This document shows, in pieces, positions 2,557 through 23,252 of a DNA stretch of 35,023 nucleotides (its first letter is position 1; every line of letters starts with the position of its first letter). The notes beneath the pieces were generated by a model. That model worked only from the letters and a program-made list of their open reading frames with translations. It ran no database searches and was not told the DNA's origin. Where the stretch lies: the NCBI GenBank assembly GCA_003584895.1, contig QVQF01000114.1, forward strand, positions 1 through 35,023, written 5' to 3'. The DNA comes from Methylococcales bacterium. GTDB taxonomy: Bacteria; Pseudomonadota; Gammaproteobacteria; Methylococcales; Methylomonadaceae. Both the position numbers and the translations under genes were made by a program.

Positions 2557-2942
2557 CAGAGTATGCAAGTTTAACGAAATGGTTAAGTAATTAGGGTTGT
2601 TGAGTGGCATTTATACTAACGCTTATCGATATTTAAATTAGCCTAGCGTTATTATTTTTTTTATAAGCTGCCGATCACCACTGAAATGCGGCCTATATTA
2701 AGTTTATTTCCGCACGAAAATCAAGCAACTATTAAATTATAGTAGATACCAAAACTCGAGCAAGCCAGACAATCGCTCTATCCTTACTCAACATGCAGAT
2801 ATCGGAAAGTATGGAACCAACTAACATGACAAAGATTTTCTATTTTTAAGCAGGTGTTAAATCTAATATTTTCGATATCAGATCTATTTTATGGAATAAT
2901 TCCTATAGCCACTTTGTACCCTCTACACAACCGAGTCATGCA

Positions 2943-3560
2943 ATGAAAAAATTAATCGCTGTTTTAACCACCATTTTCTTAACAGGCTGCAGTGTGTTTG
3001 GCTTACGAACGGCAGATCAACCAAGTTATCAAGTACTTAATGATTATGGGAACATTCAGATCAGACACTATCCAGACTTGCTTATCGCTGAAACTGAGAT
3101 AGTCGCCGATTATAAAAATGCTAGTACCCAAGGCTTTCAACGCCTTGCCGGATATATTTTTGGCAATAATCAAAAACAGCAAACCCTAGCGATGACAGCA
3201 CCTGTTATTCAGGAACAACAAACTGAAACTCTAGCCATGACGGCTCCCGTTATTCAGCAAAAATCTGAAGATCGATGGCTAATGGCGTTTGTGCTCCCTA
3301 AGGGTTATTCCATCACAACTGCGCCTATCCCTAATGATAAAGCGGTCACTATTAAAGAACTACCGGATAAAAAAGTCGCAGTTATTCAGTATACGGGCAG
3401 TCTTTGTGAATCAGGTATTGAAAAAAATGCCGGCATCTTAAGTATCTGGCTTAATCAGCAAGGTTTTAAGGCCTTATCTCCCGCACGTTCTGCAGCTTAC
3501 GATCCACCTTGGACACTACCGTTTCTTAGGCATAATGAAGTACACATTGATATAGAGTAA
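2943..3560 (+). CDS. SOUL family haem-binding lipoprotein
   Basis: Lipobox-like signal (LTTIFLTGCSVFG), YQVLNDYGNIQIRHYPDLLIAET, LAMTAPVIQ motifs typical of SOUL proteins. Confidence 0.85.
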   Translation: MKKLIAVLTTIFLTGCSVFGLRTADQPSYQVLNDYGNIQIRHYPDLLIAETEIVADYKNASTQGFQRLAGYIFGNNQKQQTLAMTAPVIQEQQTETLAMTAPVIQQKSEDRWLMAFVLPKGYSITTAPIPNDKAVTIKELPDKKVAVIQYTGSLCESGIEKNAGILSIWLNQQGFKALSPARSAAYDPPWTLPFLRHNEVHIDIE

Positions 3561-3727
3561 TGGGAGTTGCCAAATGTTTTTTTGCTTAAAGACTATTAGA
3601 AAAATCATCACCATATTTATACTGGACAATGCGCATTTTTAAGGTAAGTTCTAAATTAGCCGATTAAAAACCACAGGGTATTTATACTCAGCTTTCAATC
3701 AATTTTTTTAATATAGTGGAGCGCATC

Positions 3728-3871
3728 ATGGGACCTTATTCTCAACATACAACACATGGTATAGGGGCAACTTTTGATTTACTTTATCAGTATCCAATTT
3801 TAATGGTTATCTTTATAGTTGGCAGTATCGCTGCAGGTGTTTATTTTTGGCGAAAAAACAAAACCCAATGA
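3728..3871 (+). CDS. Small (47 aa) single-TM hypothetical protein
   Basis: ORF MGPYSQHTTHGIGATFDLLYQYPILMVIFIVGSIAAGVYFWRKNKTQ, preceded by a purine-rich stretch (tagtggagcgcatc); one clear TM helix with a basic C-terminus. Confidence 0.5.
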   Translation: MGPYSQHTTHGIGATFDLLYQYPILMVIFIVGSIAAGVYFWRKNKTQ

Positions 3872-3986
3872 GAGCGCTAGTTAAAACTCACTGAGCACTC
3901 CGTCAACATAACGTAGCGCTATTCGAATCGTTAGCTCCAAAATACTGATTTTATTAAGCGTCCTTTAATCTGATATAGCACTCCAT

Positions 3987-4059
3987 CAATCTTGCTGAGG
4001 CCTTATGCCATTTGTTAAGGAGCACTCGCTAATCATTTGATGAGTGCTTAGCAAGATTG
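3987..4059. other. Predicted three-way-junction secondary-structure element
   Basis: Perfect outer stem CAATCTTGCT (3987-3996)/AGCAAGATTG (4050-4059) enclosing CCTTA (4001-4005)/TAAGG (4016-4020) and AGCACTC (4021-4027)/GAGTGCT (4042-4048). Confidence 0.45.
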
Positions 4060-4554
4060 CATGACAATTCAACCAGATCAACGTAGTAGTCAGCAAGATT
4101 AGCCGTTAACTCCAACACAAGAAATTAGCCACCATAAAGTTCCCACTATTCCTTAGCAGTACTTACAGAGCACTTTTAATGCATTTTGTATGCGCTCTAT
4201 TATTAATAAAACAGGTCACACATACTTAATACTGCTGTAGTTAAAACAAAGAAACACCTACTTTCAGTAGCTGAAAAATTGAATCTTACCTTAAGCTTAT
4301 GGCTATATCATTAAACGAAATGAACACTTAAACAGTGACATTAACGCTCCTCTATTTTAAATAACCAGCAGTTATCGCATCACTCCAAAACGGTCATTCT
4401 AAAATAACTATCTACCTTACAAATAGCAAGTATTTTTATGTTGCTAGTTTTCAACAAAAGAACTACCTTATGTGGGGTATTTTCTATGCAGCATTTAACG
4501 TTAGCATATAACTCATATAGGTCAGCTTCTTTTGAAATCAATGACTAAAATTTA

Positions 4555-4591
4555 ATTGTTACGAACTGTTCATTAAATCGCTCGTAACAAT
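4555..4591. promoter_or_regulatory. Perfect 10-bp inverted repeat just upstream of narK (operator or 5'UTR stem-loop)
   Basis: ATTGTTACGA (4555-4564) and TCGTAACAAT (4582-4591), 17-nt spacer, ending 36 nt before the narK ATG. Confidence 0.5.
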
Positions 4592-4627
4592 AAAGACTCA
4601 CTATTTTACCCGTCAACAAGGCTTATC

Positions 4628-7312
4628 ATGTCTACCACTAATGATGTTACACCTAACCAGCAATCACGGGCACTCGCCTTAAGTACTGTTGCCTTCACCA
4701 CCTGCTTTGCCGTATGGACTATCTTTTCCATCATCGGCCTGCAAATTCAAAAAGACTTAGGCTTAAGTGAAACCGAATTTGGTTTGCTGATAGGTACGCC
4801 AATACTCTCTGGCTCCTTAATTCGGCTGGTATTAGGTATATGGAGCGACCAATACGGTGGCCGGATTATCTATACGATAGTTATGGTGACCTCAGCTATC
4901 GCTACCTTTCTATTAACGACCGTTGATACTTACCTGATGTACTTAGTAGCCGCACTAGGTATTGGTGTTGCAGGGGGTTCTTTTGCTGTAGGTATCGCCT
5001 ATACTTCATGCTGGTTTCCTACCGAAAAACAAGGCACGGCCTTGGGTATTTTCGGTTTGGGTAACATCGGTGCTGCCATCACAAAATTTACCGCACCGTT
5101 TGTGATGATTGCCTTTGGTTGGCATGCTGTCGCGCAACTATGGGGAGCAGTTTTATTGCTGATGGCAATCGTTTTCTGGCTTTTTAGTGACGATGACCCT
5201 ATGCTCAAAGCGAGGCGTTTATCGGGTGCCAAGCCAGACTCCTTTATAAAACAACTAGAGCCTCTTAAAAACATTCAAGTTTGGCGCTTTTCACTGTATT
5301 ACTTTTGTGTATTTGGCGCCTTTGTCGCCTTAGCGCTGTGGTTACCTCGTTATCTGGTAGGTGCTTACGGCTTTGATATTAAGGTCGCAGGTATGCTGGC
5401 GGCCTTGTTTTCGATTTTTGCCAGTTTGTTTCGAGCCGTAGGTGGTTGGTTAGCAGATCGCTACGGCGCCCGCTTAATCATGTACTGGACATTTATTGTC
5501 GCAGCCATCTGTACTTTTTTTCTGTCCTATCCACCTACCGATTATTTGATACATGGCATTAAGGGTGATATCAGCTTTAGCCTAGCCATGGGACCTGCGG
5601 GCTTTATCTTTCTGACATCGGTGTTAGCGCTGTTTATGTCTTTTGGTAAAGCTGCCGTCTACAAACATATCCCAGTTTATTACCCCAATAATATCGGTGC
5701 TGTAGGCGGTGCCGTCGGTATGATCGGAGGTCTAGGCGGCTTCTTACTCCCATTGACGTTCGGCATGTTGAATGATTTGACTGGCATCTGGAGTAGTTGC
5801 TTCATGCTATTGTTTGCTTTAGTCATTATCGCACTTACTTGGATGCACTTTTCTATTGCCAGAATGGAGCGCCGCGTTGTACCTGAATTAGCTAGAGTTT
5901 CAACTGACTTACCTGAACTAAGTCACCCTTCTTCATTGATATTGACGGATTGGAGTCCTGAAGAGCCCGGCTTCTGGGAAAAAACGGGGAAACATATTGC
6001 CACACGCAATTTATGGATCAGCATACCCGCCTTATTATTAGCCTTTGCTGTATGGATGGTCTGGAGCGTGGTGGTTATTAATTTACCCAGTATCGGTTTT
6101 AAATACACCACTAATGAATTGTTCTGGTTGACAGCATTGCCGGGCTTATCTGGAGCGACCTTACGGATTTTCTATTCCTTTATGGTGCCTATTTTTGGTG
6201 GCCGTCGTTGGACAACTATTAGTACGCTATCGTTATTATTGCCGTCGATCTGGATAGGCTTTGCCGTACAAAATACTGAAACGCCTTATATTTTAATGGC
6301 GGTATTAGCTTTATTATGCGGCTTTGGTGGTGGTAACTTTGCCTCCAGCATGGCGAACATTAGCTTTTTTTATCCACAAGCACAAAAAGGCACAGCGCTG
6401 GGCTTAAATGCCGGCTTGGGTAATTTAGGCGTCAGTACCGTGCAGTTTGTAGTGCCGTTGGTTATTGCTATGAGCGTATTCGGTTCATGGGGCGGCGAGC
6501 CACAACTGTGGGTTAAGGCAGAGGTAACTAAAAACATCTGGTTACAAAATGCTGGTTTTATTTGGGTGCCATTTATTATTGCGACCAGTATTGCCGCTTG
6601 GTTTGGCATGAATGATATCGCCTCAGCTAAAGCCTCCTTTAAAGAGCAATCCGTCATTTTTAAACGTAAACACAATTGGTTGATGTGCTGGCTCTATACC
6701 GGAACTTTCGGTTCTTTTATTGGTTATTCAGCGGGTTTCCCCATGTTAATCAAAATCTTGTTTCCTGACATTAATCCAACCCAATACGCCTTTTTAGGCC
6801 CTTTGGTTGGTGCTTTAATTAGACCCGTCGGTGGCTGGTTGGCCGATAAACTGGGCGGCGCACAAGTCACCTTGTGGAACTTCTTCATCATGATAATGGC
6901 AGTATTGGGCGTGTTGCATTTCATGCCGGCTGAGGGAAATCTAGGTAATTTCTGGGGCTTTCTTGCCATGTTTATGCTGTTATTTATCACCACAGGCATT
7001 GGTAATGGTTCAACATTTCGGATGATTCCCGTTATTTTTATGACCGAACGTTTGTGCGCTGTCAAAGGACAAGCCGCAGACATTCTGGCTCAAGCACGAA
7101 AAGACGCTGCTAAAGAAGCGGCGGCAGTCTTAGGCTTTAGTTCGGCGGTCGCTGCTTATGGTGCATTTTTTATTCCTAAGAGTTACGGTACTGCAATCAG
7201 CATGACGGGTAGACCGGATGCTGCCTTGTATTGCTTTATTGCTTTTTACATCATTTGCATAGCGATTACCTGGTGGAATTACGCACGTAAAACAGCGGCT
7301 ATGCCGTGTTGA
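4628..7312 (+). CDS. narK: Fused nitrate/nitrite transporter with two MFS (NarK) modules
   Basis: 894 aa with two consecutive MFS halves; GxxxRLVLGIWSDQYGGR and GGWLADRYGAR in half 1, GALIRPVGGWLADKLGG in half 2; immediately upstream of narG. Confidence 0.93.
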   Translation: MSTTNDVTPNQQSRALALSTVAFTTCFAVWTIFSIIGLQIQKDLGLSETEFGLLIGTPILSGSLIRLVLGIWSDQYGGRIIYTIVMVTSAIATFLLTTVDTYLMYLVAALGIGVAGGSFAVGIAYTSCWFPTEKQGTALGIFGLGNIGAAITKFTAPFVMIAFGWHAVAQLWGAVLLLMAIVFWLFSDDDPMLKARRLSGAKPDSFIKQLEPLKNIQVWRFSLYYFCVFGAFVALALWLPRYLVGAYGFDIKVAGMLAALFSIFASLFRAVGGWLADRYGARLIMYWTFIVAAICTFFLSYPPTDYLIHGIKGDISFSLAMGPAGFIFLTSVLALFMSFGKAAVYKHIPVYYPNNIGAVGGAVGMIGGLGGFLLPLTFGMLNDLTGIWSSCFMLLFALVIIALTWMHFSIARMERRVVPELARVSTDLPELSHPSSLILTDWSPEEPGFWEKTGKHIATRNLWISIPALLLAFAVWMVWSVVVINLPSIGFKYTTNELFWLTALPGLSGATLRIFYSFMVPIFGGRRWTTISTLSLLLPSIWIGFAVQNTETPYILMAVLALLCGFGGGNFASSMANISFFYPQAQKGTALGLNAGLGNLGVSTVQFVVPLVIAMSVFGSWGGEPQLWVKAEVTKNIWLQNAGFIWVPFIIATSIAAWFGMNDIASAKASFKEQSVIFKRKHNWLMCWLYTGTFGSFIGYSAGFPMLIKILFPDINPTQYAFLGPLVGALIRPVGGWLADKLGGAQVTLWNFFIMIMAVLGVLHFMPAEGNLGNFWGFLAMFMLLFITTGIGNGSTFRMIPVIFMTERLCAVKGQAADILAQARKDAAKEAAAVLGFSSAVAAYGAFFIPKSYGTAISMTGRPDAALYCFIAFYIICIAITWWNYARKTAAMPC

Positions 7313-7399: not shown

Positions 7400-10300
7400 A
7401 TGAGTCACTTCCTCGATCGCTTGCTGTTTCTCAAGAAAAAAGTAGACACGTTCTCCGGTGATCACGGGGTAGTGACTAATGAAGATCGTAGCTGGGAAAA
7501 CAGTTATCGATCACGCTGGCAACACGACAAAATTGTGCGCTCTACGCATGGCGTCAATTGTACGGGTTCTTGCAGCTGGAAAATCTATGTTAAAAATGGG
7601 CTAGTGACTTGGGAAACCCAACAGACCGATTATCCGCGTACGCGTCCTGATTTACCCAATCACGAACCACGAGGATGCTCTCGCGGTGCCAGTTATTCTT
7701 GGTATTTATATAGCGCCAATCGCCTCAAATACCCCATGATACGCGGCCGTTTGGTCAGACTATGGCGTGAAGCTAGATTAAGCTTAGATCCCGTTGATGC
7801 TTGGGCATCCATCGTTGAAGATCCTATAAAAAGCACTGAATATAAATCCAAACGCGGCTTAGGGGGCTTGGTTCGCGCCAACTGGGCAGAAGTCAACGAG
7901 ATTATCGCTGCGGCCAATATTTATACGGCAAAAACCTTCGGCCCCGATCGTATTATTGGTTTTTCGCCTATACCCGCCATGTCTATGGTGTCTTATGCCG
8001 CCGGTAGTCGTTATTTGTCGCTGATCGGCGGCGTGAGTATGAGCTTTTATGACTGGTATTGCGATTTGCCACCGGCATCCCCGCAAACTTGGGGCGAGCA
8101 AACCGATGTCCCTGAATCAGCCGATTGGTATAACGCTGGCTTTTTGATGTTATGGGGCTCAAACGTCCCGCAAACTCGAACGCCTGATGCGCACTTCATG
8201 ACCGAAGCGCGTTATAAAGGTGCCAAGATTGTCGTGGTCAGCCCTGATTATTCAGAAGCCAGTAAATTTGCCGATTTGTGGTTGCACCCCAAACAGGGTA
8301 CCGATGCGGCATTGGCGATGGCGATAGGACACGTTATCCTCAAAGAATTTCATGTTGAGCGCCAAAGCCCTTATTTTAATCAGTATGTCCGTGAGAATAC
8401 CGACCTGCCCTTTCTAGTGATACTTAAAGAACAGGACGGCGCTTATGTGCAAGATCGCTTCTTGAGGGCATCCGACTTTATAGGCAACTTAAGTCAAGAT
8501 AATAACCCTGATTGGAAAACAGTCGCTTATGATGAAATCAGTGGCCAGATTGTTCCGCCTTGTGGCTCTATCGGCTTTCGCTGGGGTGAAAGCGGGCATT
8601 GGAATATAGAACAAAAAACCGTAGACAATCAGCCTATCAGCTTGCGCTTAAGCTTGATTGATCATAAAGATGCGACTGCTAGTGTCGGCTTTCCTTATTT
8701 TGGTGGTTCCGAACATCCACATTTCACCCATTCCGCTCATGACGCTATTCAAAAACGCCATGTGCCCGTTAAAAAAATCACCCTAGCCGATGGCACAGAA
8801 GTCTTAGCCACTACGGTATTTGATTTGCTGGTGGCTAACTATGGTATAGATCGTGGTTTGGGTGGTGGCAATGTCGCGAGCTCTTATGATGAAGATGTTC
8901 CGTACACGCCAGCGTGGCAGGAAAAAATCACCGGTGTTACTCGGAAAAATGTCATTGCAGTGGCGCGGGAATTTGCGACTAATGCCGAAAAAACTCAAGG
9001 TCGTTCGATGGTGATACTGGGTGCCGGCATTAATCATTGGTATCACATGGATATGACTTATCGCGGCATCATGAATATGTTGATGCTTTGCGGTTGCGTC
9101 GGGCAGTCCGGTGGCGGTTGGGCGCATTATGTAGGCCAAGAAAAACTCAGACCTCAAACGGGTTGGTTACCGCTCGCCTTTGGTTTGGACTGGAAACGTC
9201 CGCCTAGACAAATGAACAGCACCTCGTTTTTCTACAGTCACACAAGTCAATGGCGTTACGAAACCCTTAAAGTCAGCGAGATTTTATCGCCGACTGCCAA
9301 GCCTGAAGACTGGCAAGGCAGTTTGATCGACTTTAACGTTAAATCTGAACGCATGGGCTGGTTACCCTCAGCGCCACAATTACAAACCAATCCTTTACAA
9401 GTGGTGCGCGATGCGGAAGTCGCTGGTATAGCACCGATTGATTATGTCGTGAATAGCCTGAAAGACGGCAGTTTGAAAATGTCCTGCGAAGACCCTGATA
9501 ATCCCAAAAACTTTCCACGCAATATGTTTGTGTGGCGCTCCAATTTATTAGGCTCTTCAGGCAAAGGCCATGAATACTTTTTAAAGTATTTACTAGGCAC
9601 AAAGCATGGTATACAAGGCAAAGACCTAGGTGATGATGAGGGTGAAAAACCCTCGGAAGTGCTCTGGCATGAAACGGCCGCAGAGGGAAAACTCGACTTA
9701 CTGGTAACACTGGATTTTCGGATGTCCACAACCTGTTTGTATTCGGATATCATTTTACCGACGGCAACTTGGTATGAGAAAAATGACCTCAATACCTCAG
9801 ATATGCACCCGTTTATCCACCCCTTGTCCAAAGCGGTTGATCCCGCATGGGAATCACGTTCTGATTGGGATATTTACAAAGGTATCGCCAAGAAATTCTC
9901 AGAACTCACTGTAGGTCATTTAGGACTAGAAAAAGATATCGTCGCCGTACCGGTGCTACATGACACGCCCGGAGAACTGGCCCAGCCCTTTGATGTCAAG
10001 GACTGGAAGAAAGGTGAATGCGAGCCGATTCCGGGAAAAACCATGCCGTCACTGGTGATTGTTGAGCGTGATTATCCCAATACTTACAAAATGTTCACCT
10101 CATTGGGGCCCATGCTGAGTAAAGTTGGTAATGGCGGTAAAGGTATTGCTTGGAATACCGAAACTGAAGTCCAGCAACTGGGTGAGCTAAATCGATTAGT
10201 GACAGATGAAGGCATCAGTAAAGGTCTGCCTCGCATTGAATCGGATATTGATGCGACCGAAGTGATTTTGATGCTAGCACCCGAAACCAATGGCCATGTT

Positions 10301-14726: not shown

Positions 14727-15887
14727 ATGAATATTTTCAACAGATCGACCGTTATTTTTATAGTCTTAAGTAGCTTGATCAGTGCTTGCTCTGATGAAGC
14801 AAAGAACAAGGCGATGGCCGAAAAATACAACGCAGTTCAAGTAGAGAAAATAAAGCACAAAGCGATGTCGGCCGAAGAAATGTCCGCGCATTCAGGTGAA
14901 GAAATGCATCATGCCACGCCTATGGCTAATGAAACGACAACTACGCCAAAAATAGATACCGATGAAATCGGCCGTCGAGCGGATGACTTACCGCCGCCGA
15001 TTAATCGTAGGCAGTCACAACGGGTGAGTATTGATCTTTATAGCGATGAAGTAGTCGCAGAAATGATGCCTGATGTGACTTACCAATATTGGACTTATAA
15101 CGGTAAAGTACCTGGGCCGTTTATCAGAGCCAGAACGGGCGATCAAATAGACATAAATTTAAGTCACGGTAAACCAGGCCTTGCTCATGAAGCCCATAAT
15201 CAGCACACCTCGTCTGAACATACTGCCGCAGGTCATTCGGCTCATTCTATCGATTTGCATGCCGTTGTTGGTCCTGGTGGCGGCGCACCATTAATGCAAG
15301 TCGCTCAAGGTGAACAAAAAAGCTTTAGTTTTAACGCCACGCATCCGGGTATTTATATTTATCATTGTGCAAGTCCCCATGTACCCACTCATATCGCCAA
15401 TGGCATGTATGGCATGATTCTGGTCGAACCGGAACAAGGCCTGTCAAAAGTCGATCGTGAGTTTTACGTGATGCAAGGCGATTTTTACACCCATGGTAAA
15501 TATGGCGATAAAGGGCTACAAGCCTTTAGTAAAGAAAAGCTGTTAAATGAGCATCCTGAATATTTTTTATTCAATGGTCGAGTTAACTCGCTCAGCGGTG
15601 AACGTGCTTTGAAAGCCAAAGTGGGTGAAAAAATCCGTCTATTTGTAGGCGTTGGTTCTCATATCGCGTCTAATTTTCATATCATCGGCGCTATATTCGA
15701 TAACGTCTATCAATACGGAGCGATTACGAATCCGCCACTCAAAAACGTTCAAACTACAATCATAGCGCCCGGCTCTGCCGTTATGATCGAGTTTACTGCT
15801 GAAGTTCCTGGCAAATACCTGCTGGTTGATCATAGTCTGACTCGTGCCATTGACAAAGGCGCGCTGGCAGAGTTGGTCATAGAATAG
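14727..15887 (+). CDS. nirK: Copper-containing nitrite reductase, AniA-like, predicted lipoprotein
   Basis: Lipobox LISACSDE; Cu ligand motifs HSIDLHAVVGPGGGA, YIYHCASPHVPTHIANGMYGMILVEP, NFHIIGAIFDNVY, VDHSLTRAIDKGALAEL matching the AniA-type pattern. Confidence 0.93.
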   Translation: MNIFNRSTVIFIVLSSLISACSDEAKNKAMAEKYNAVQVEKIKHKAMSAEEMSAHSGEEMHHATPMANETTTTPKIDTDEIGRRADDLPPPINRRQSQRVSIDLYSDEVVAEMMPDVTYQYWTYNGKVPGPFIRARTGDQIDINLSHGKPGLAHEAHNQHTSSEHTAAGHSAHSIDLHAVVGPGGGAPLMQVAQGEQKSFSFNATHPGIYIYHCASPHVPTHIANGMYGMILVEPEQGLSKVDREFYVMQGDFYTHGKYGDKGLQAFSKEKLLNEHPEYFLFNGRVNSLSGERALKAKVGEKIRLFVGVGSHIASNFHIIGAIFDNVYQYGAITNPPLKNVQTTIIAPGSAVMIEFTAEVPGKYLLVDHSLTRAIDKGALAELVIE

Positions 15888-16021: not shown

Positions 16022-16261
16022 CTAGTGCCATAAATCATAAGCCGCTTGTGCTGCAAGCCAAGATTCGGCACTTTTCCCAAACACCAACTCTAATCGCAAG
16101 GCCATTTCTGGGCTAATGGCTGTTTTTCCATTAACCAGAGCAGATACCGTTTTTCGGGTTACATTTAAATTTTTAGCGGCTTGGGTAATTGTCAGTTTAA
16201 GAGGTTTTAACCACAGTTCAGCTAATATTTCACCAGGATGTGGTGGATTAAACATACGCAT
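16022..16261 (-). CDS. higA: HigA-family (XRE) antitoxin-like regulator; no HigB detected alongside
   Basis: [78 protein letters not shown] is the characteristic HigA/VapI pattern. Confidence 0.85.
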
Positions 16262-16317
16262 AAAATATCTGCTCGATTAACGTTTAAAGCTTGATAGTAT
16301 CATACAGAATGAATTAT

Positions 16318-19300
16318 CTAGACTGATCTCAGTACAGAAAAATGCCTAAATAATTCAATCGGCATGGCCGCCTTAAGCTCCCATGTAATTGAAATGGGGC
16401 GCTCACCTTCTGCTTTAATTAATAGTGCTTCACCCAGTGCAGCAAAGGCAGCATTTTTGTTTTCACGAACAAATAAAAAGAACCTCCAGCCATTGGCCAA
16501 AGGTTCTGCAACGCTATTTAAATAGCGAAGTCCGGTATTATTAGTGGAGCTGGCAACATTTTGAGATTGCCAGTGAAACAATTTCGGGCTAATCGCATAA
16601 TCATGATATTGAACACGCTCATCAAAACCTTCGCTTTTATCTAAAGTCACAAACATTAATTCTATTTTACTGTCCGAAATAGCTAAACAACCCTCCCTAA
16701 ATGCCGGACGTTTAGTCGCATTAGCATAAGAAATCGCGGTAATAATATCCGATCTTGAGTAGCGATTATGTAATGAAAGTACCCATGAAGACGGAGTTCC
16801 ATCAAGATGACAATAAGGCTGTATTGATTGCTCTATACGCCACTCTATAACTTCGATTAACTCGTCTTTGATCGCTGGATGTTGCTCAATTAATAACATG
16901 AACTGAGCTGGGTTAATTAATTCAGATTGACGAACTAAAAATGTATGAGCAAGTATTTGAACCCTAGTTGCATCAATCTTTTTATGTACTAAAGCTTGGT
17001 GCCAAGCGTTTAAAATTTCAATATCATCAACGTATAAAATACTGGCAACTCTTCGTGATAATTCATCTTCCCTAACTCCCTTTGCCAGAGTTGGAAGATG
17101 CGCCAATCGTTTAAGTTCAGTCCAATAATGATTCCCTGAATAAATATCCGAAATATCTATCTCATTCTCAAGTAAGAATTCTTTTAATGTAATTTTCGTA
17201 TGGTCTTTGGCTGTTGCCCAAGCAACTAATTCTGCAGTGAGACGAGTCACATTTAGTTTTAGAGAAGATTTAAGACTCGCTAATACTCGCTCCCTAGCCA
17301 CTCTATCGAACTGAATATGACAACCTGTAGGCAATGAGCCAAAACCTTTATCAACAGAGTCTTTTATAGCCAATCTATTTTGGCCTGTTAAAGCTCTCAA
17401 CAATATATCAAATCTAAAATCTTGTGAGTATGTTCCAACAAAATCTAAAACCAAGCAACTCTGTTTACCTAATGATAACCGTAACCCCCGACCAATTTGC
17501 TGCTGAAACACGACTGGACTTTGGGTTGGCCTTAGCAATAACAAGGTGTTTACATCGGGTATATCAACGCCTTCATTAAATAAATCACAAGTGAATATTA
17601 CTTTTAGTCTGCCATGCTTTAGTTCATTAATCGCATGTTCTCGCTCTGTTTGATTATGTTCCCCTGTAATTGATTTTGAAGGCAATCCATGTGAATTAAA
17701 ATACGCAGCCATGAATTCCGCATGGCGCACACTGATGCAAAAACCGATAGCTTTGAGCTTTGCTAAATCACTAACATAGGTTTCAACAGCTTGAAGTGCT
17801 GAGCGAGCACGTATATCACTGGCCGAAATTATATTATCAAGCTGCTCAACAATGGTGTTTTTTTTCCATTGAATACTTGTTAAATCAATGTCGTCGTGGG
17901 TTGCATAATATTCAAAAGGAGCGAGTAACTCCTGATCAAGAGCATCCCATAATCTTAATGTTACGGCAGGTGAGCCATCAGGTCTTGTATCGAAGTATTG
18001 ATTTAAACTTTTACCATCTGCACGTTCTGGTGTAGCAGTTAATCCCAAAAGAACAGCAGGCTTAACCGATGATATGAATTTATCAAACGAATTAGCCGGT
18101 AAATGATGAGCCTCATCAATTATGACCATATTCCAGAAACTTGCACCATGCTGAGCTACCAAGTCACGGTTATGAGCCGTATTAATGGTTACAAATAAAT
18201 GCTCATGTTGGCTAGCTTCATTATTGCCATCTAATAACTCGCCAAAATTTGAATCACGTAACACTTGCCGAAAAGTGTTCATAGCCTGTATTAGTATCTG
18301 CACCCGATGAGCAACAAACAATAAACGCGGCTGCCCGCCTTTTTCTTTTGTCAAGCGCCCATAATCAAAGGCCGCAACAACGGTTTTGCCTGTACCAGTC
18401 GCTGCAACAACTAAATTTCGATAACGATGATGCGTTCTTTCTGCAGCCAATCGATCAAGCATTTCTTGTTGATAAGGTTTAGGGCTTAAATCGAACCATG
18501 TTTGTATTGCAATTAATTCAGAACTACTTTGATTAGTTTTTCCGTGCCTTGATTCTGCATATAAAGCTTTTTCTAAGGCATTACGATGATCTTGATTGCA
18601 CGGATCATAATGGAGAAATTCACCATCATTCCAAAGCGTTTCAAAATGTGCCTGAGCATTTTTGAAAATAGCTTCGTTTGAGCACTGTGTTAACTTAACT
18701 GTCCATTCAATGCCGCTGATTAAGGCAGACTCAGATAAATTAGCACTGCCTATAAAGGCTGTACCAAAACCACTATTGCGATTAAAAATCCAAGCTTTAG
18801 CATGTAAGCGCGTACGCCTACCGTCTAATGAAATTCTTAATTCAACATTAGGCAACTCAGCTAATGCATTGACGGCTCTTGCTTCTGTTGCACCAATGTA
18901 TGTCGTCGTTAAAATGCGAAACTTTGTTCGAGATTTCCCCGTCGCATCAATGGCAGTCGCTTGTTTCAATACATCAATTATTTTTCTTACGCCGCTCCAA
19001 GTAATAAAACTTACCAATATATCAACGGTATCGACTGCTTGTAATTCTGCAATGAGCTCGTGTAATAAAGAAGGCTCACTGCGTGAAGAACTAAATAGCC
19101 AAGGTGTACGCAAACCAGTAACCGGAAAAATGCCCGGCATTTCAGGTTCGTGTATAGATCGTAAAACTTGTGGGGGTTCTACTATAAAATCAATTTCAAG
19201 CTCAGCTTTTGCTTCTAGTCTTGCATTTTTTAATACGGTCGAAATTAACTGAATTTCAGCTAGATTCTTTTCAGAACTACTATCTTTTGATGCAGAAATC

Positions 19301-19473
19301 TCATCTAAAAGCTCAGGTAATCTATTCAATAGATCACTTAATAAATACTCTCTATTTTCAATATACGATGGCGTTTTAACAGTTGCCCTCCCTTCAAAAA
19401 TCAGCTTATTTATTTCTGCTAATTCATCTTCATGAATCAAGCGATCGTATAAGCCTTTTGATAATTTTGTCAT
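16318..19473 (-). CDS. PLD-like nuclease + SF2 DEAH helicase + DUF3427-like C-terminus
   Basis: N-terminal HxK/GSANLS pattern (RLHAKAWIFNRNSGFGTAFIGSANLS), Walker A VVAATGTGKTVVAAF, Walker B IIDEAHH, TATPERADG, motif VI QQQIGRGLRL; C-terminal region resembles DUF3427 (NHYWTELKRLA, AISPKLFHWQSQN, ALLIKAEGERPISITWEL). Confidence 0.88.
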   Translation of the reverse strand: MTKLSKGLYDRLIHEDELAEINKLIFEGRATVKTPSYIENREYLLSDLLNRLPELLDEISASKDSSSEKNLAEIQLISTVLKNARLEAKAELEIDFIVEPPQVLRSIHEPEMPGIFPVTGLRTPWLFSSSRSEPSLLHELIAELQAVDTVDILVSFITWSGVRKIIDVLKQATAIDATGKSRTKFRILTTTYIGATEARAVNALAELPNVELRISLDGRRTRLHAKAWIFNRNSGFGTAFIGSANLSESALISGIEWTVKLTQCSNEAIFKNAQAHFETLWNDGEFLHYDPCNQDHRNALEKALYAESRHGKTNQSSSELIAIQTWFDLSPKPYQQEMLDRLAAERTHHRYRNLVVAATGTGKTVVAAFDYGRLTKEKGGQPRLLFVAHRVQILIQAMNTFRQVLRDSNFGELLDGNNEASQHEHLFVTINTAHNRDLVAQHGASFWNMVIIDEAHHLPANSFDKFISSVKPAVLLGLTATPERADGKSLNQYFDTRPDGSPAVTLRLWDALDQELLAPFEYYATHDDIDLTSIQWKKNTIVEQLDNIISASDIRARSALQAVETYVSDLAKLKAIGFCISVRHAEFMAAYFNSHGLPSKSITGEHNQTEREHAINELKHGRLKVIFTCDLFNEGVDIPDVNTLLLLRPTQSPVVFQQQIGRGLRLSLGKQSCLVLDFVGTYSQDFRFDILLRALTGQNRLAIKDSVDKGFGSLPTGCHIQFDRVARERVLASLKSSLKLNVTRLTAELVAWATAKDHTKITLKEFLLENEIDISDIYSGNHYWTELKRLAHLPTLAKGVREDELSRRVASILYVDDIEILNAWHQALVHKKIDATRVQILAHTFLVRQSELINPAQFMLLIEQHPAIKDELIEVIEWRIEQSIQPYCHLDGTPSSWVLSLHNRYSRSDIITAISYANATKRPAFREGCLAISDSKIELMFVTLDKSEGFDERVQYHDYAISPKLFHWQSQNVASSTNNTGLRYLNSVAEPLANGWRFFLFVRENKNAAFAALGEALLIKAEGERPISITWELKAAMPIELFRHFSVLRSV

Positions 19474-19497
19474 TGAAGTTTAGGTAAAGTCATTTGG

Positions 19498-19650
19498 TTA
19501 AAAACTATAGATAGCGGCAAAAGGCGTAAAGTCATAAGCCAGTGCATGTAGCCATTGATGCGCCACGGCTTTGGCTTCTGTGCCTACAGGCGCATAGTTA
19601 ACAGCGGTAGGCAGCAAGGCTTCTACTGTTCTTTGAAAAAAAGAGTTCAT
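19498..19650 (-). CDS. 50-aa ORF carrying copy A of a duplicated coding segment
   Basis: Minus-strand translation MNSFFQRTVEALLPTAVNYAPVGTEAKAVAHQWLHALAYDFTPFAAIYSF*; 112 bp of it is repeated at 20378-20489. Confidence 0.45.
   Translation of the reverse strand: MNSFFQRTVEALLPTAVNYAPVGTEAKAVAHQWLHALAYDFTPFAAIYSF
19515..19626. repeat. ~112-bp direct repeat, copy A
   Basis: Near-identical (about 7 substitutions) to 20378-20489; the pair flanks the VapBC genes. Confidence 0.9.
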
Positions 19651-19708
19651 TATTATTTTAATTAAGTTACAAGCTAGCTTGTTGCCAGCTAATAGTTTAC
19701 TGATGCCA

Positions 19709-20128
19709 TCAAACCCAAGGATTAAGTATTTTTACACCTGTTGGTTTAAAATCTACGACATTGCGTGTAACCACGGTCATATTATGCACGATAGCAGTGG
19801 CGGCAATGAGCGCATCACGATCTGAACGAGGATCTGGGACATGTAACTTTCCACAACAAAGTGCTACAGCCGCATCGATAACAAGAATACGTCCTTCAAA
19901 AGCAGGTAATACATGATGATTAAGCCAAGTACGAAGCATCACCGCTTGTGCTATATCGCGTCGTTCAATTAAACCAATGCCCATTTCTAACTCAAGCAAC
20001 GTCACCACTGATAAATATAAATCAGTCGGTGCAACTTTATCCGCCCAAGCTTTTACATGAGGATTTATTTTAGTTGTTTTTGCTTTTCTTAGTTCAGAAA
20101 CGACGTTGGTATCTAGCAAACATTTCAT
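19709..20128 (-). CDS. vapC: PIN-domain toxin, VapC/FitB-like
   Basis: MKCLLDTNVVSELRKAK, LYLSVVTLLELEMGI, PDPRSDRDALIAATAIVHNMTVVTRNVVDF: PIN-domain acidic residue pattern. Confidence 0.93.
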   Translation of the reverse strand: MKCLLDTNVVSELRKAKTTKINPHVKAWADKVAPTDLYLSVVTLLELEMGIGLIERRDIAQAVMLRTWLNHHVLPAFEGRILVIDAAVALCCGKLHVPDPRSDRDALIAATAIVHNMTVVTRNVVDFKPTGVKILNPWV

Positions 20129-20349
20129 TTCAAATCAGCCGGATGAAACATAGTTGACGCTAAGCGGGGCGGATCAAAGTCAATATCAGCACCATCTGGC
20201 ATTGCCAGTAACTCAGCAATATTGGCTTGATTTTTATGTTGCTGTATATAGTCGGTTAATATTTTAACGATAGCTTCTTGAGCATTATGATAATGACTAA
20301 CAGTAATCACTTCATTAATTAAGGCGTCATCTAAGGTAATAATAGTCAT
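20125..20349 (-). CDS. vapB: VapB-like antitoxin
   Basis: 74 aa, MTIITLDDALINEVITVSHYHNAQEAIVKILTDYIQQ; ATGA overlap with the PIN toxin gene. Confidence 0.75.
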   Translation of the reverse strand: MTIITLDDALINEVITVSHYHNAQEAIVKILTDYIQQHKNQANIAELLAMPDGADIDFDPPRLASTMFHPADLK

Positions 20350-20489
20350 TATTTACTCCGTATGTTCAAGAAATATTCGGCAAAGGGCGTAAAGTCATAA
20401 GCCAGTGCATGTAGCCATTGATGCGCCACGGCTTTGGCTTCTATGCCTTCAGGTGCATAGTTAACAGCAGTAGGCAACAAGGCCTCTAT
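20349..20489 (-). pseudogene. Copy B of the duplicated coding segment; appears 5'-truncated by a palindromic repeat
   Basis: Minus-strand reading frame EALLPTAVNYAPEGIEAKAVAHQWLHALAYDFTPFAEYFLNIRSK*, stop TAA overlapping the vapB ATG (TAATG). Confidence 0.5.
20378..20489. repeat. ~112-bp direct repeat, copy B
   Basis: Matches 19515-19626. Confidence 0.9.
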
Positions 20490-20493
20490 GCCA

Positions 20494-20514
20494 GTCGGGG
20501 TTTGCAACCCCGAC
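20494..20514. repeat. Palindromic repeat GTCGGGGTTtgcAACCCCGAC
   Basis: Perfect 9-bp stem, 3-nt loop. Confidence 0.75.
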
Positions 20515-20592
20515 CGAAACGTTTGAATGCTTAAATCATTCCTGAAACGTTAAACATTAGGGAGATCTTATCGCGTTAACGCTACCGAGCGT

Positions 20593-20796
20593 TTGCTAGA
20601 CTTATTAAAGCACTTATAGTGTCTATCTGTCGATTGCTAGACCTATTCAAGCACTCATAGGGTCTATTTGTCGCTTGCTAGACCTATTCAAGCATTTATA
20701 AGGTCTATTTGTCGCTTGCTAGCCCTATTAATGCAGATTTAGGGCTAACTAGCGTTTGATAGACCTACTTAAAGCAATTTTAGTGCATAGGTACTG
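20593..20796. repeat. Tandem array of five ~41-bp hairpin-forming repeats
   Basis: Units start at 20593, 20634, 20675, 20716, 20756; consensus TTGCTAGACCTATTCAAGCAnTnATAGGGTCTATTTGTCGC; units 1-4 contain TAGACCTAT/ATAGGGTCTA-type inverted repeats; fifth unit is degenerate. Confidence 0.85.
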
Positions 20797-20870: not shown

Positions 20871-22259
20871 CTACTTGCTGACTGATACTGAGTTAAGTAT
20901 GGCGTCTTTAAACCTAGCCTTGGTACTATCGCTTTCAAAGGCATGATCAATAATGGGTGCTGGATATGAGCCAGACTGATGTTTTTTATGCCATTGATGA
21001 ATGATTTTCGGAGTATAGGCTTTAAGCTCAGGTATCCATCGGTAGATATACTGGCAATCTGCATCAAATTTTTGTTGCTGCAACCAAGGATTAAATATTC
21101 GAAAGTAGGGCTGGGCATCACAACCTGTTGATGCCGCCCACTGCCAATTGCCATTATTAACACAGGGATCATAATCAACTAAATGCTGGGCAAAATAACG
21201 CTCGCCCCAACGCCAACTCACATGTAAGTCTTTCACTAAAAAAGAAGCGACGATCATTCTGACGCGATTGTGCATAAATCCCGTCGCATTAAGTTCACGC
21301 ATACCGGCATCAACGATAGGAAAGCCAGTTCTCCCATCCGCCCAAGCCTGAAAATAGTCCAGATTATTATCCCAATGCAGATTAGCAAACTTTTCTAAAA
21401 AAGCCTTACCAAATACCCTAGGGTAGTGATAAGCAATATGCGTAAAAAAATCACGCCAATAAAGCTGTCTTATTAAAGGGTGCTCACTACCCAAAGCATT
21501 GATTAGCGCATAATAAACTTCTCGCACTGAACAGGTACCAAACTTTAAATGCGCAGATAACTTACTCGTGCTATCCAAAACCGGAAAATCTCGAGTATTC
21601 AGGTAATCGGCCTGCTCAGCAAGCTGTTCAAGTATGCCTAGCGCTTGCAATCGACCACCTTTGCTTATCTCCACAGTAGCTTTACTAAACGACAAAGCTA
21701 CTTGTTCAATACTCACTTCAGAGGCTATAGACAAAAAGCGCTGCGCACTTAAGGCTTGCGGCAAGGCAACTGGAATCTGTCGGGCATTATTATAAAAAGC
21801 AGTAAACACTTTATAAGGCGTTTGGTCACTTTTTAGCGCCTGCTCAGGCTCAGTAAGAAGTGCATCTGCTAAGATATATAGCGACAAGCCTAGTTTTTGA
21901 CAAGTCTCTGCCAGCTCTGCATCACGCCGCCTGCTAAAAGGCGTGTAATCACGATTAATAAATACCGCTTGAATGGATTGCTGCTTTAATGCACAGGCAA
22001 TTACTTGATCAGGCAAGCCCTTATAAAGCGTTAGATTGCCACCGACGCTTTGCAATTGCTGATCAAGATCTGCAATTGACTGCAACATAAAATGCAGTGC
22101 GGGTTGGCTTTGATAAGGATGAGCGTCTATTTGTCTGGGGTCAAAAATGAAACAGGGCAAGACTTGCTTAGAAAGGCGTAAAGCTTCATTCAGCGCGGTA
22201 TTATCCTGCAAGCGTAAATCACGCCGAAAAATAAATAGGGATTTGTTGTAGACAGGCAT
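20871..22259 (-). CDS. phrB: Deoxyribodipyrimidine photolyase
   Basis: LFIFRRDLRLQDNTALNEAL; WRDFFTHIAYHYP; FPIVDAGMRELNATGFMHNRVRMIVASFLVKDLHVSWRWGERYFAQHLVDYDPCVNNGNWQWAASTGCDAQPYFRIFNP. Confidence 0.97.
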   Translation of the reverse strand: MPVYNKSLFIFRRDLRLQDNTALNEALRLSKQVLPCFIFDPRQIDAHPYQSQPALHFMLQSIADLDQQLQSVGGNLTLYKGLPDQVIACALKQQSIQAVFINRDYTPFSRRRDAELAETCQKLGLSLYILADALLTEPEQALKSDQTPYKVFTAFYNNARQIPVALPQALSAQRFLSIASEVSIEQVALSFSKATVEISKGGRLQALGILEQLAEQADYLNTRDFPVLDSTSKLSAHLKFGTCSVREVYYALINALGSEHPLIRQLYWRDFFTHIAYHYPRVFGKAFLEKFANLHWDNNLDYFQAWADGRTGFPIVDAGMRELNATGFMHNRVRMIVASFLVKDLHVSWRWGERYFAQHLVDYDPCVNNGNWQWAASTGCDAQPYFRIFNPWLQQQKFDADCQYIYRWIPELKAYTPKIIHQWHKKHQSGSYPAPIIDHAFESDSTKARFKDAILNSVSVSK

Positions 22260-23053: not shown

Positions 23054-23252
23054 TATCGTTCCCACGCTCTGCGCTCATCGTTATACACATCTCATAGTCG
23101 CGTAAGATGGACAGTTATGTAGGGTGGATAAGCTGCGCGCATCCACCGTTTATATCGGCAAAGGATGGGCATTTTAAAACAGCTGAAGCTGTTTTACTCC
23201 AAGCACACAGAATACTTGTGTATAACGATGAGCGCTCTGCGTGGGAACGATA
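23054..23252. repeat. MITE-like element with 36-bp terminal inverted repeats
   Basis: TATCGTTCCCACGCTCTGCGCTCATCGTTATACACA (23054-23089) vs inverse of 23217-23252, 33/36 matches; internal hairpins GGTGGAT/ATCCACC and AAAACAGC/GCTGTTTT. Confidence 0.75.

Follow-up and report, generated by a model that had tools for sequence, protein, structure and literature searches.

A putative SauUSI-like Type IV restriction gene probably occupies the remains of a 5-methylcytosine restriction-modification operon in a Methylococcales genome

What brings a predicted restriction enzyme together with two short, repeat-bearing open reading frames (ORFs) and toxin-antitoxin (TA) genes? The question arises from a contig of a Methylococcales bacterium (GenBank assembly GCA_003584895.1, contig QVQF01000114.1), of which we analyzed positions 1 to 35,023 of the forward strand (35,023 nucleotides; hereafter, the window). 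At 16022-20507, six minus-strand ORFs encode HigA, a helicase, ORF A, VapC, VapB, and ORF B. We use the label HEL for the helicase, a 1051-amino-acid (aa) enzyme with phospholipase D (PLD), helicase, and DUF3427 domains. The initial annotation saw in this arrangement an addictive or regulated anti-invader module with two antitoxin families at its ends. Our analysis points to a different origin: the locus is best explained as the carcass of a 5-methylcytosine (m5C) restriction-modification (R-M) operon occupied by its antagonist, HEL, a joint reading to which we assign a probability of roughly 0.82. The features on which it turns are as follows.

16318..19473, minus strand: HEL, predicted SauUSI-like Type IV restriction enzyme, 1051 aa (PADLOC, SauUSI match, DUF3427, and ratio of nonsynonymous to synonymous substitution rates [dN/dS])
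16339..16806, minus strand: DUF3427 domain of HEL, aa 890-1045, predicted SRA-like (profile, AlphaFold2 model, Foldseek, invariant residues)
19498..19650, minus strand: ORF A, putative 5' relic of an m5C methyltransferase gene, spanning its first ~45 codons and retaining the ATG (homology to genes of the related genomes G025 and G008)
20349..20507, minus strand (homology 20378-20488): ORF B, putative second 5' relic of the methyltransferase gene, original ATG lost (similarity to copy A)

HEL has the architecture of a known restriction enzyme family. Its domains follow in the order PLD nuclease (approximately aa 119-281), superfamily 2 (SF2) ATPase (approximately aa 329-680), coupler, and DUF3427 (approximately aa 890-1045), and Pfam-type models match ResIII with 123 bits and DUF3427 with 77.8 bits (cut-off, 27.7). 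The best PADLOC model is mREase_IV PDLC03659, Type IV methyl-directed (E = 1.5e-185, residues 109-1044), and the best relative with a solved structure is SauUSI (7clg; E = 3.8e-82). An HAK motif in HEL aligns with H119 and K121 of SauUSI, indicating an intact PLD HxK active site, and H224 and K226 of HEL are invariant in 18 homologues. The SF2 motor retains Walker A (ATGTGKT), a DEAH box, and motif VI (QQIGRGLR); the HxK, Walker A, DExH, and motif VI elements are all conserved across 24 homologues. Compared with five relatives, HEL has a dN/dS of approximately 0.05-0.13, which indicates purifying selection. By its sequence, HEL is a predicted SauUSI-like Type IV (modified-cytosine-dependent) restriction enzyme. 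The earlier proposal that a PLD nuclease joined to an SF2 helicase makes a restriction- or defense-type protein can be narrowed to this family, to which PADLOC, the 7clg match, a profile search, and Foldseek all lead.

In SauUSI of Staphylococcus aureus, the DUF3427-type target-recognition domain (TRD) is an SRA-fold domain with a pocket that receives the flipped m5C (PMC7913695). Our first sequence alignment of HEL with SauUSI ended before DUF3427. A profile built from the C-terminal region of the HEL family finds the SauUSI TRD (7clg; E = 2.7e-7), and a Foldseek search with an AlphaFold2 model of the HEL domain (pLDDT, 84.7) returned SauUSI 7clg first (E = 1.1e-6), followed by AspBHI, AbaSI, and the SRA domain of SUVH5. 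Asp858, Trp868, and Phe841 of the SauUSI m5C pocket are kept in HEL, Ile842 is replaced by Val, Tyr831 by Cys, and Met829 by Glu. Among HEL homologues, the pocket Asp and Trp are invariant and the Phe is nearly so; D958 and W968 in the HEL domain are invariant in 18 homologues. Collectively, sequence and predicted fold match the DUF3427 domain of HEL to that of SauUSI and mark it as a predicted SRA-like TRD. By analogy, HEL very probably restricts modified-cytosine DNA in the manner of SauUSI, and its cleavage in this organism would then depend on m5C.

The two repeat-bearing ORFs suggest what the locus held before. ORF A and ORF B share a 111-nt repeat with 94% identity (19515-19625 and 20378-20488), which the initial annotation took for a repeat peptide belonging to the module. 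These are the only two copies in the whole genome (2.6 Mb, 96% complete), and a search for the repeat on plasmids gave no match. When the 50-aa repeat peptide was searched in relatives, it was found as the N-terminus of longer proteins. These have 175 aa in both G025 and G017; in G008 (416 aa) and G036 (427 aa) they are full-length methyltransferases. PF00145 (E = 7.8e-95) identifies the 416-aa protein as an m5C methyltransferase. ORF A is 91% identical to codons 1-46 of the G025 methyltransferase ORF, and the junction between an ORF B-type relic and vapB also occurs in G030, there with an intact ATG. Judged by this homology, ORFs A and B are 5' relics of an m5C methyltransferase gene from an R-M operon. 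A conserved peptide or dispersed repeat was rejected, given the two genomic copies and their homology to a methyltransferase N-terminus. VapBC sits between the two relics in the window, and insertion of vapBC with target duplication is a possible origin of the two copies.

The contigs of related genomes, which are from methanotrophs (Crenothrix polyspora metagenome-assembled genomes, Methylobacter psychrophilus, and uncultured Methylococcaceae), preserve the operon in several states. It is intact in G008 and G016; in G008 the 416-aa methyltransferase gene is followed by an AAA (McrB-like) gene and then by a DUF2357/PDDEXK_7 (McrC-like) nuclease gene. Only the 5' relics of the methyltransferase gene are left in the window. 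Directly upstream of HEL, the window, G015, G034, and G026 each carry a methyltransferase stub. On the other side, McrC-like relics lie directly 3' of HEL, beginning 26 nt past the stop codon in G015 and 3-7 nt past it in G014, G029, and G021; in G011 such a relic lies 812 nt downstream. Both ends, stub and McrC relic, are present in G015, on two contigs. A transporter family adjoins the McrC relic or gene in both G011 and G017. Operons that have lost their modification enzyme also occur on their own: in L070 (G017) and L069 (G025), only 175 aa of the methyltransferase remain and the McrB-like gene is open, and in G017 the McrC-like gene is also still open.

One chromosomal site was seen in alternative states. 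In G016, VOC and NUDIX genes enclose an intact methyltransferase-McrB-McrC operon (L147), the methyltransferase of which differs from that of G008, and in G032 the same two genes enclose HEL (L149). In G012 (L151), the same NUDIX gene is preceded by a McrC fragment only. A further locus, in G515 (L165, G515:C51, reverse strand, ~2566-5721), holds a HEL copy with 84% identity and one internal TGA. This copy interrupts a Z1 ATPase gene that has a broken (frameshifted) m5C methyltransferase gene as its neighbor, and a PD-(D/E)XK-like ORF follows; from its sequence, we interpret this locus as a second kind of m5C R-M operon hit by HEL. In all, approximately 9 of the 16 close HEL loci border on relics of the two kinds of m5C R-M operon, and G032, a further locus, occupies an R-M site. 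Five of the six fragmentary McrC matches in the genus adjoin HEL.

Methyltransferase relics directly upstream of HEL could also mean that HEL was once the restriction subunit of a classical, modification-blocked R-M system whose adjacent m5C methyltransferase later decayed, and CglI/NgoAVII-type R-M systems are likewise built with PLD and SF2 parts (PMC7913695). However, intact methyltransferases of this family partner McrB-like and McrC-like proteins rather than HEL, and among the HEL homologues examined, including those of other species, none lies beside an intact cognate methyltransferase. The TRD is SRA-like and not of the B3 type, and a classical enzyme deprived of any methyltransferase would cut its own genome. 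We regard this alternative as scarcely credible.

Under the preferred reading, in which HEL is the operon's antagonist, HEL would dimerize through its PLD domains, and its SRA-like DUF3427 domain would read a flipped modified cytosine (m5C or 5-hydroxymethylcytosine). The SF2 motor would translocate, and the paired PLD domains would break incoming modified DNA. HEL would take the place of the m5C R-M operon (methyltransferase, McrB-like, and McrC-like genes), the promoter region of which may be reused. The operon could not coexist with HEL, as methylation by its own enzyme would expose the host chromosome to cleavage; the arrival of HEL would be incompatible with a resident m5C methyltransferase, and the R-M operon would therefore be lost. 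A search for m5C methyltransferases (PF00145) in the window's own genome, 96% complete, gave no match. The lack of a cognate enzyme fits a Type IV system, since such an enzyme would require that methyltransferase to be absent.

Several observations weigh against this reading. The HEL TRD is only weakly similar in sequence to that of SauUSI, and Tyr831, which contacts the methyl group in the model, is Cys in HEL and mostly Val in its homologues; the modified base or context read by HEL may therefore differ. G027 has both HEL and a full-length m5C methyltransferase. Across the genus, a methyltransferase is present in 1 of 12 genomes with HEL versus 10 of 23 others, a weak avoidance (two-sided P = 0.055, phylogeny not controlled) that we treat as suggestive and do not use as proof. 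Finally, some HEL genes, including those of G027, G516, and most distant homologues, have no R-M relic nearby.

These points bear on the main rival, which concerns the cause of the arrangement and not the identity of the relics. Defense islands may shuffle neutrally, so that HEL came to lie among R-M relics by chance and conflict played no part. The islands are plainly fluid, with TA genes, relics, and rearranged flanks, and one methyltransferase-positive HEL genome, G027, exists. Chance must nonetheless account for relics of two different kinds at more than half of the close loci, for the occupied R-M site in G032, and for the clustering of McrC fragments next to HEL. We consider neutral shuffling doubtful as the explanation; replacement of the R-M operon by HEL, in that direction and driven by conflict, would account for these loci.

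How HEL moves is a further matter. Homology between HEL loci mostly begins at most ~40 nt before the ATG and stops at the stop codon. We tentatively raise the possibility that HEL travels with almost no sequence beyond its ORF, is preferentially retained at sites where its arrival destroys m5C R-M operons, and takes over their promoters, in effect an assassin of such systems. On this same tentative view, the preference would arise because a cell would survive the arrival of HEL only by losing its methyltransferase. Distant HEL homologues are mostly solitary among ordinary genes. In L104 (G073), positions 9778-9893, a 26-aa DUF2357 (McrC-like) stretch begins 17 nt after a homologue with 35% identity; the sequence looks genuine, but lies at a contig end, and it hints that the association may extend well beyond the family. 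Two other distant homologues, in L105 and L108, each lie beside similar proteins of 567-575 aa, of which the L105 protein has an S-adenosylmethionine-dependent methyltransferase domain and an HNH-like stretch.

The remaining genes of the locus belong to TA families.

16022..16261, minus strand: HigA antitoxin, orphan (TIGR02607, 105 bits; cut-off, 47.7)
16269..16294, minus strand: putative higB relic, 26 nt, in the HEL-higA spacer (23/26 nt identical to G025 higB)
19709..20128, minus strand: VapC toxin, PIN domain (PF01850, 40.7 bits; cut-off, 23.6)
20125..20349, minus strand: VapB antitoxin (VapB_antitoxin PF09957, 28.6 bits; cut-off, 23.4)

The vapB gene overlaps the PIN toxin gene by 4 nt, and both products score above their cut-offs, as in a VapBC pair. 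Where a HigBA pair would have higB upstream of higA, the window has only the 26-nt relic, after which the match to G025 higB jumps by a deletion to the higA ATG. The window HigA is 96% identical to that of the G025 HigB-HigA pair and, by this homology, is the apparent remnant of such a pair; its dN/dS is approximately 0.06-0.08, on few changes. In G025 (L069), a truncated methyltransferase gene and a McrB-like gene are followed by HigB-HigA. R-M genes and HigBA are thus found at a single locus in that genome.

Could these genes and HEL nonetheless form one co-expressed, addictive defense module, with VapBC and HigA as stabilizers or regulators of the nuclease and the repeat ORF as the source of a module peptide? 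The genes are tightly packed in the same direction, the orphan HigA has a low dN/dS, and a TA gene of some kind is found close to many of the HEL loci in the genus. The co-occurrence of the helicase with these neighbors, which the initial annotation put forward for a survey, held in part: HigA and VapB accompany HEL in two sister genomes, whose enzymes are 97-98% identical, and only there. VapC is deleted in both, VapB being retained without it upstream of HEL in L040 and L041, and unrelated TA genes stand at other HEL loci (ParDE, zeta toxin, Phd-PIN, and an MNT-type nucleotidyltransferase), so that the TA family differs at every locus. TA genes are common neighbors anyway, with eight PIN genes in the window's genome, vapC included. 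HigB is deleted in the window, the repeat is a putative methyltransferase relic, and distant HEL homologues lack these partners. This survey of HEL neighbors led us to reject a stable TA and restriction module; a co-expressed addictive module is very improbable, and VapBC is a selfish cassette of its own that shows no conserved association with HEL.

The layout described in the initial annotation stands throughout, including the domain names at curated cut-offs. The ORF B stop codon and the vapB ATG have one base in common, and spacers of 58 nt (vapC-ORF A), 24 nt (ORF A-HEL), and 56 nt (HEL-higA) separate the other genes. The flanks are also as reported, with a respiratory cluster on one side (a nirK-like gene ending at 15887) and a photolyase gene on the other (20871-22259). 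A scan for sigma-70 promoters and terminators found sites no more often than in shuffled sequence. No clean empty site between nirK and phr was found; among the photolyase relatives fetched, some with very short flanks, none had nirK on its 3' side.

Other features of the window lie outside the module. Between vapBC and the photolyase gene, a 41-nt unit recurs in four imperfect tandem copies (20590-20753), and related arrays occur in L041 (1989-2550), upstream of the module. At 23054-23252, a 36-nt inverted repeat (arms 92% complementary, separated by 127 nt) may be a small dispersed element; part of it matches L040 and L041. Upstream of the nitrate reductase cluster, 4628-7312 encodes an 894-aa protein resembling two fused major facilitator superfamily nitrate/nitrite transporters.

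If HEL did displace the operon, the outcome of a conflict between a Type IV enzyme and an m5C R-M system would be readable in DNA, as relics flank HEL in several genomes, at several sites, and a single site exists with an R-M operon, with the Type IV gene, and, on one side, with a relic. Eviction of m5C R-M systems by Type IV enzymes thereby becomes testable with sister genomes. The locus also carries a caution: short "repeat ORFs" and orphan antitoxins near defense genes may be leftovers of displaced systems. HEL itself is a new member of a known family, and the exchange of restriction genes at one site is already known. In the open-access literature searched, we found no description of a Type IV gene repeatedly lodged in m5C R-M relics.

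Like SauUSI (7clg; PMC7913695), HEL is a single chain of PLD, SF2, coupler, and SRA-type TRD with the HxK motif and the pocket Asp, Trp, and Phe conserved. Unlike SauUSI, it is ~100 residues longer at the N-terminus, its TRD is distantly similar with Cys and Glu in place of Tyr831 and Met829, and its PADLOC subfamily is PDLC03659 rather than PDLC03658. The VapBC and HigBA genes resemble known systems in their domain families and in the overlapping vapBC arrangement; here, HigB is lost and there is no conserved link to restriction. Conflict between McrBC and an incoming methyltransferase has been demonstrated in the laboratory (PMC2614495). In Pectobacterium, PcaRCI, an m5C methyltransferase and McrBC-like R-M system, is in conflict with the methyl-dependent nuclease PcaRCII (PMC8989522). 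The G008 and G016 operons have the same three-gene composition as PcaRCI. Whereas the Pectobacterium R-M system silences the nuclease from a separate locus and both persist, here the nuclease gene would have replaced the R-M system, leaving the methyltransferase as a stub. Restriction genes also replace one another at a single site in Escherichia coli, where McrBC gives way to Eco94GmrSD (PMC12707154), and in the Listeria immigration control region (PMC10059834). As in such regions, a single chromosomal position is occupied in turn by different restriction systems, close to TA genes; unlike there, HEL at several sites still has relics of the displaced methyltransferase and nuclease on either side.

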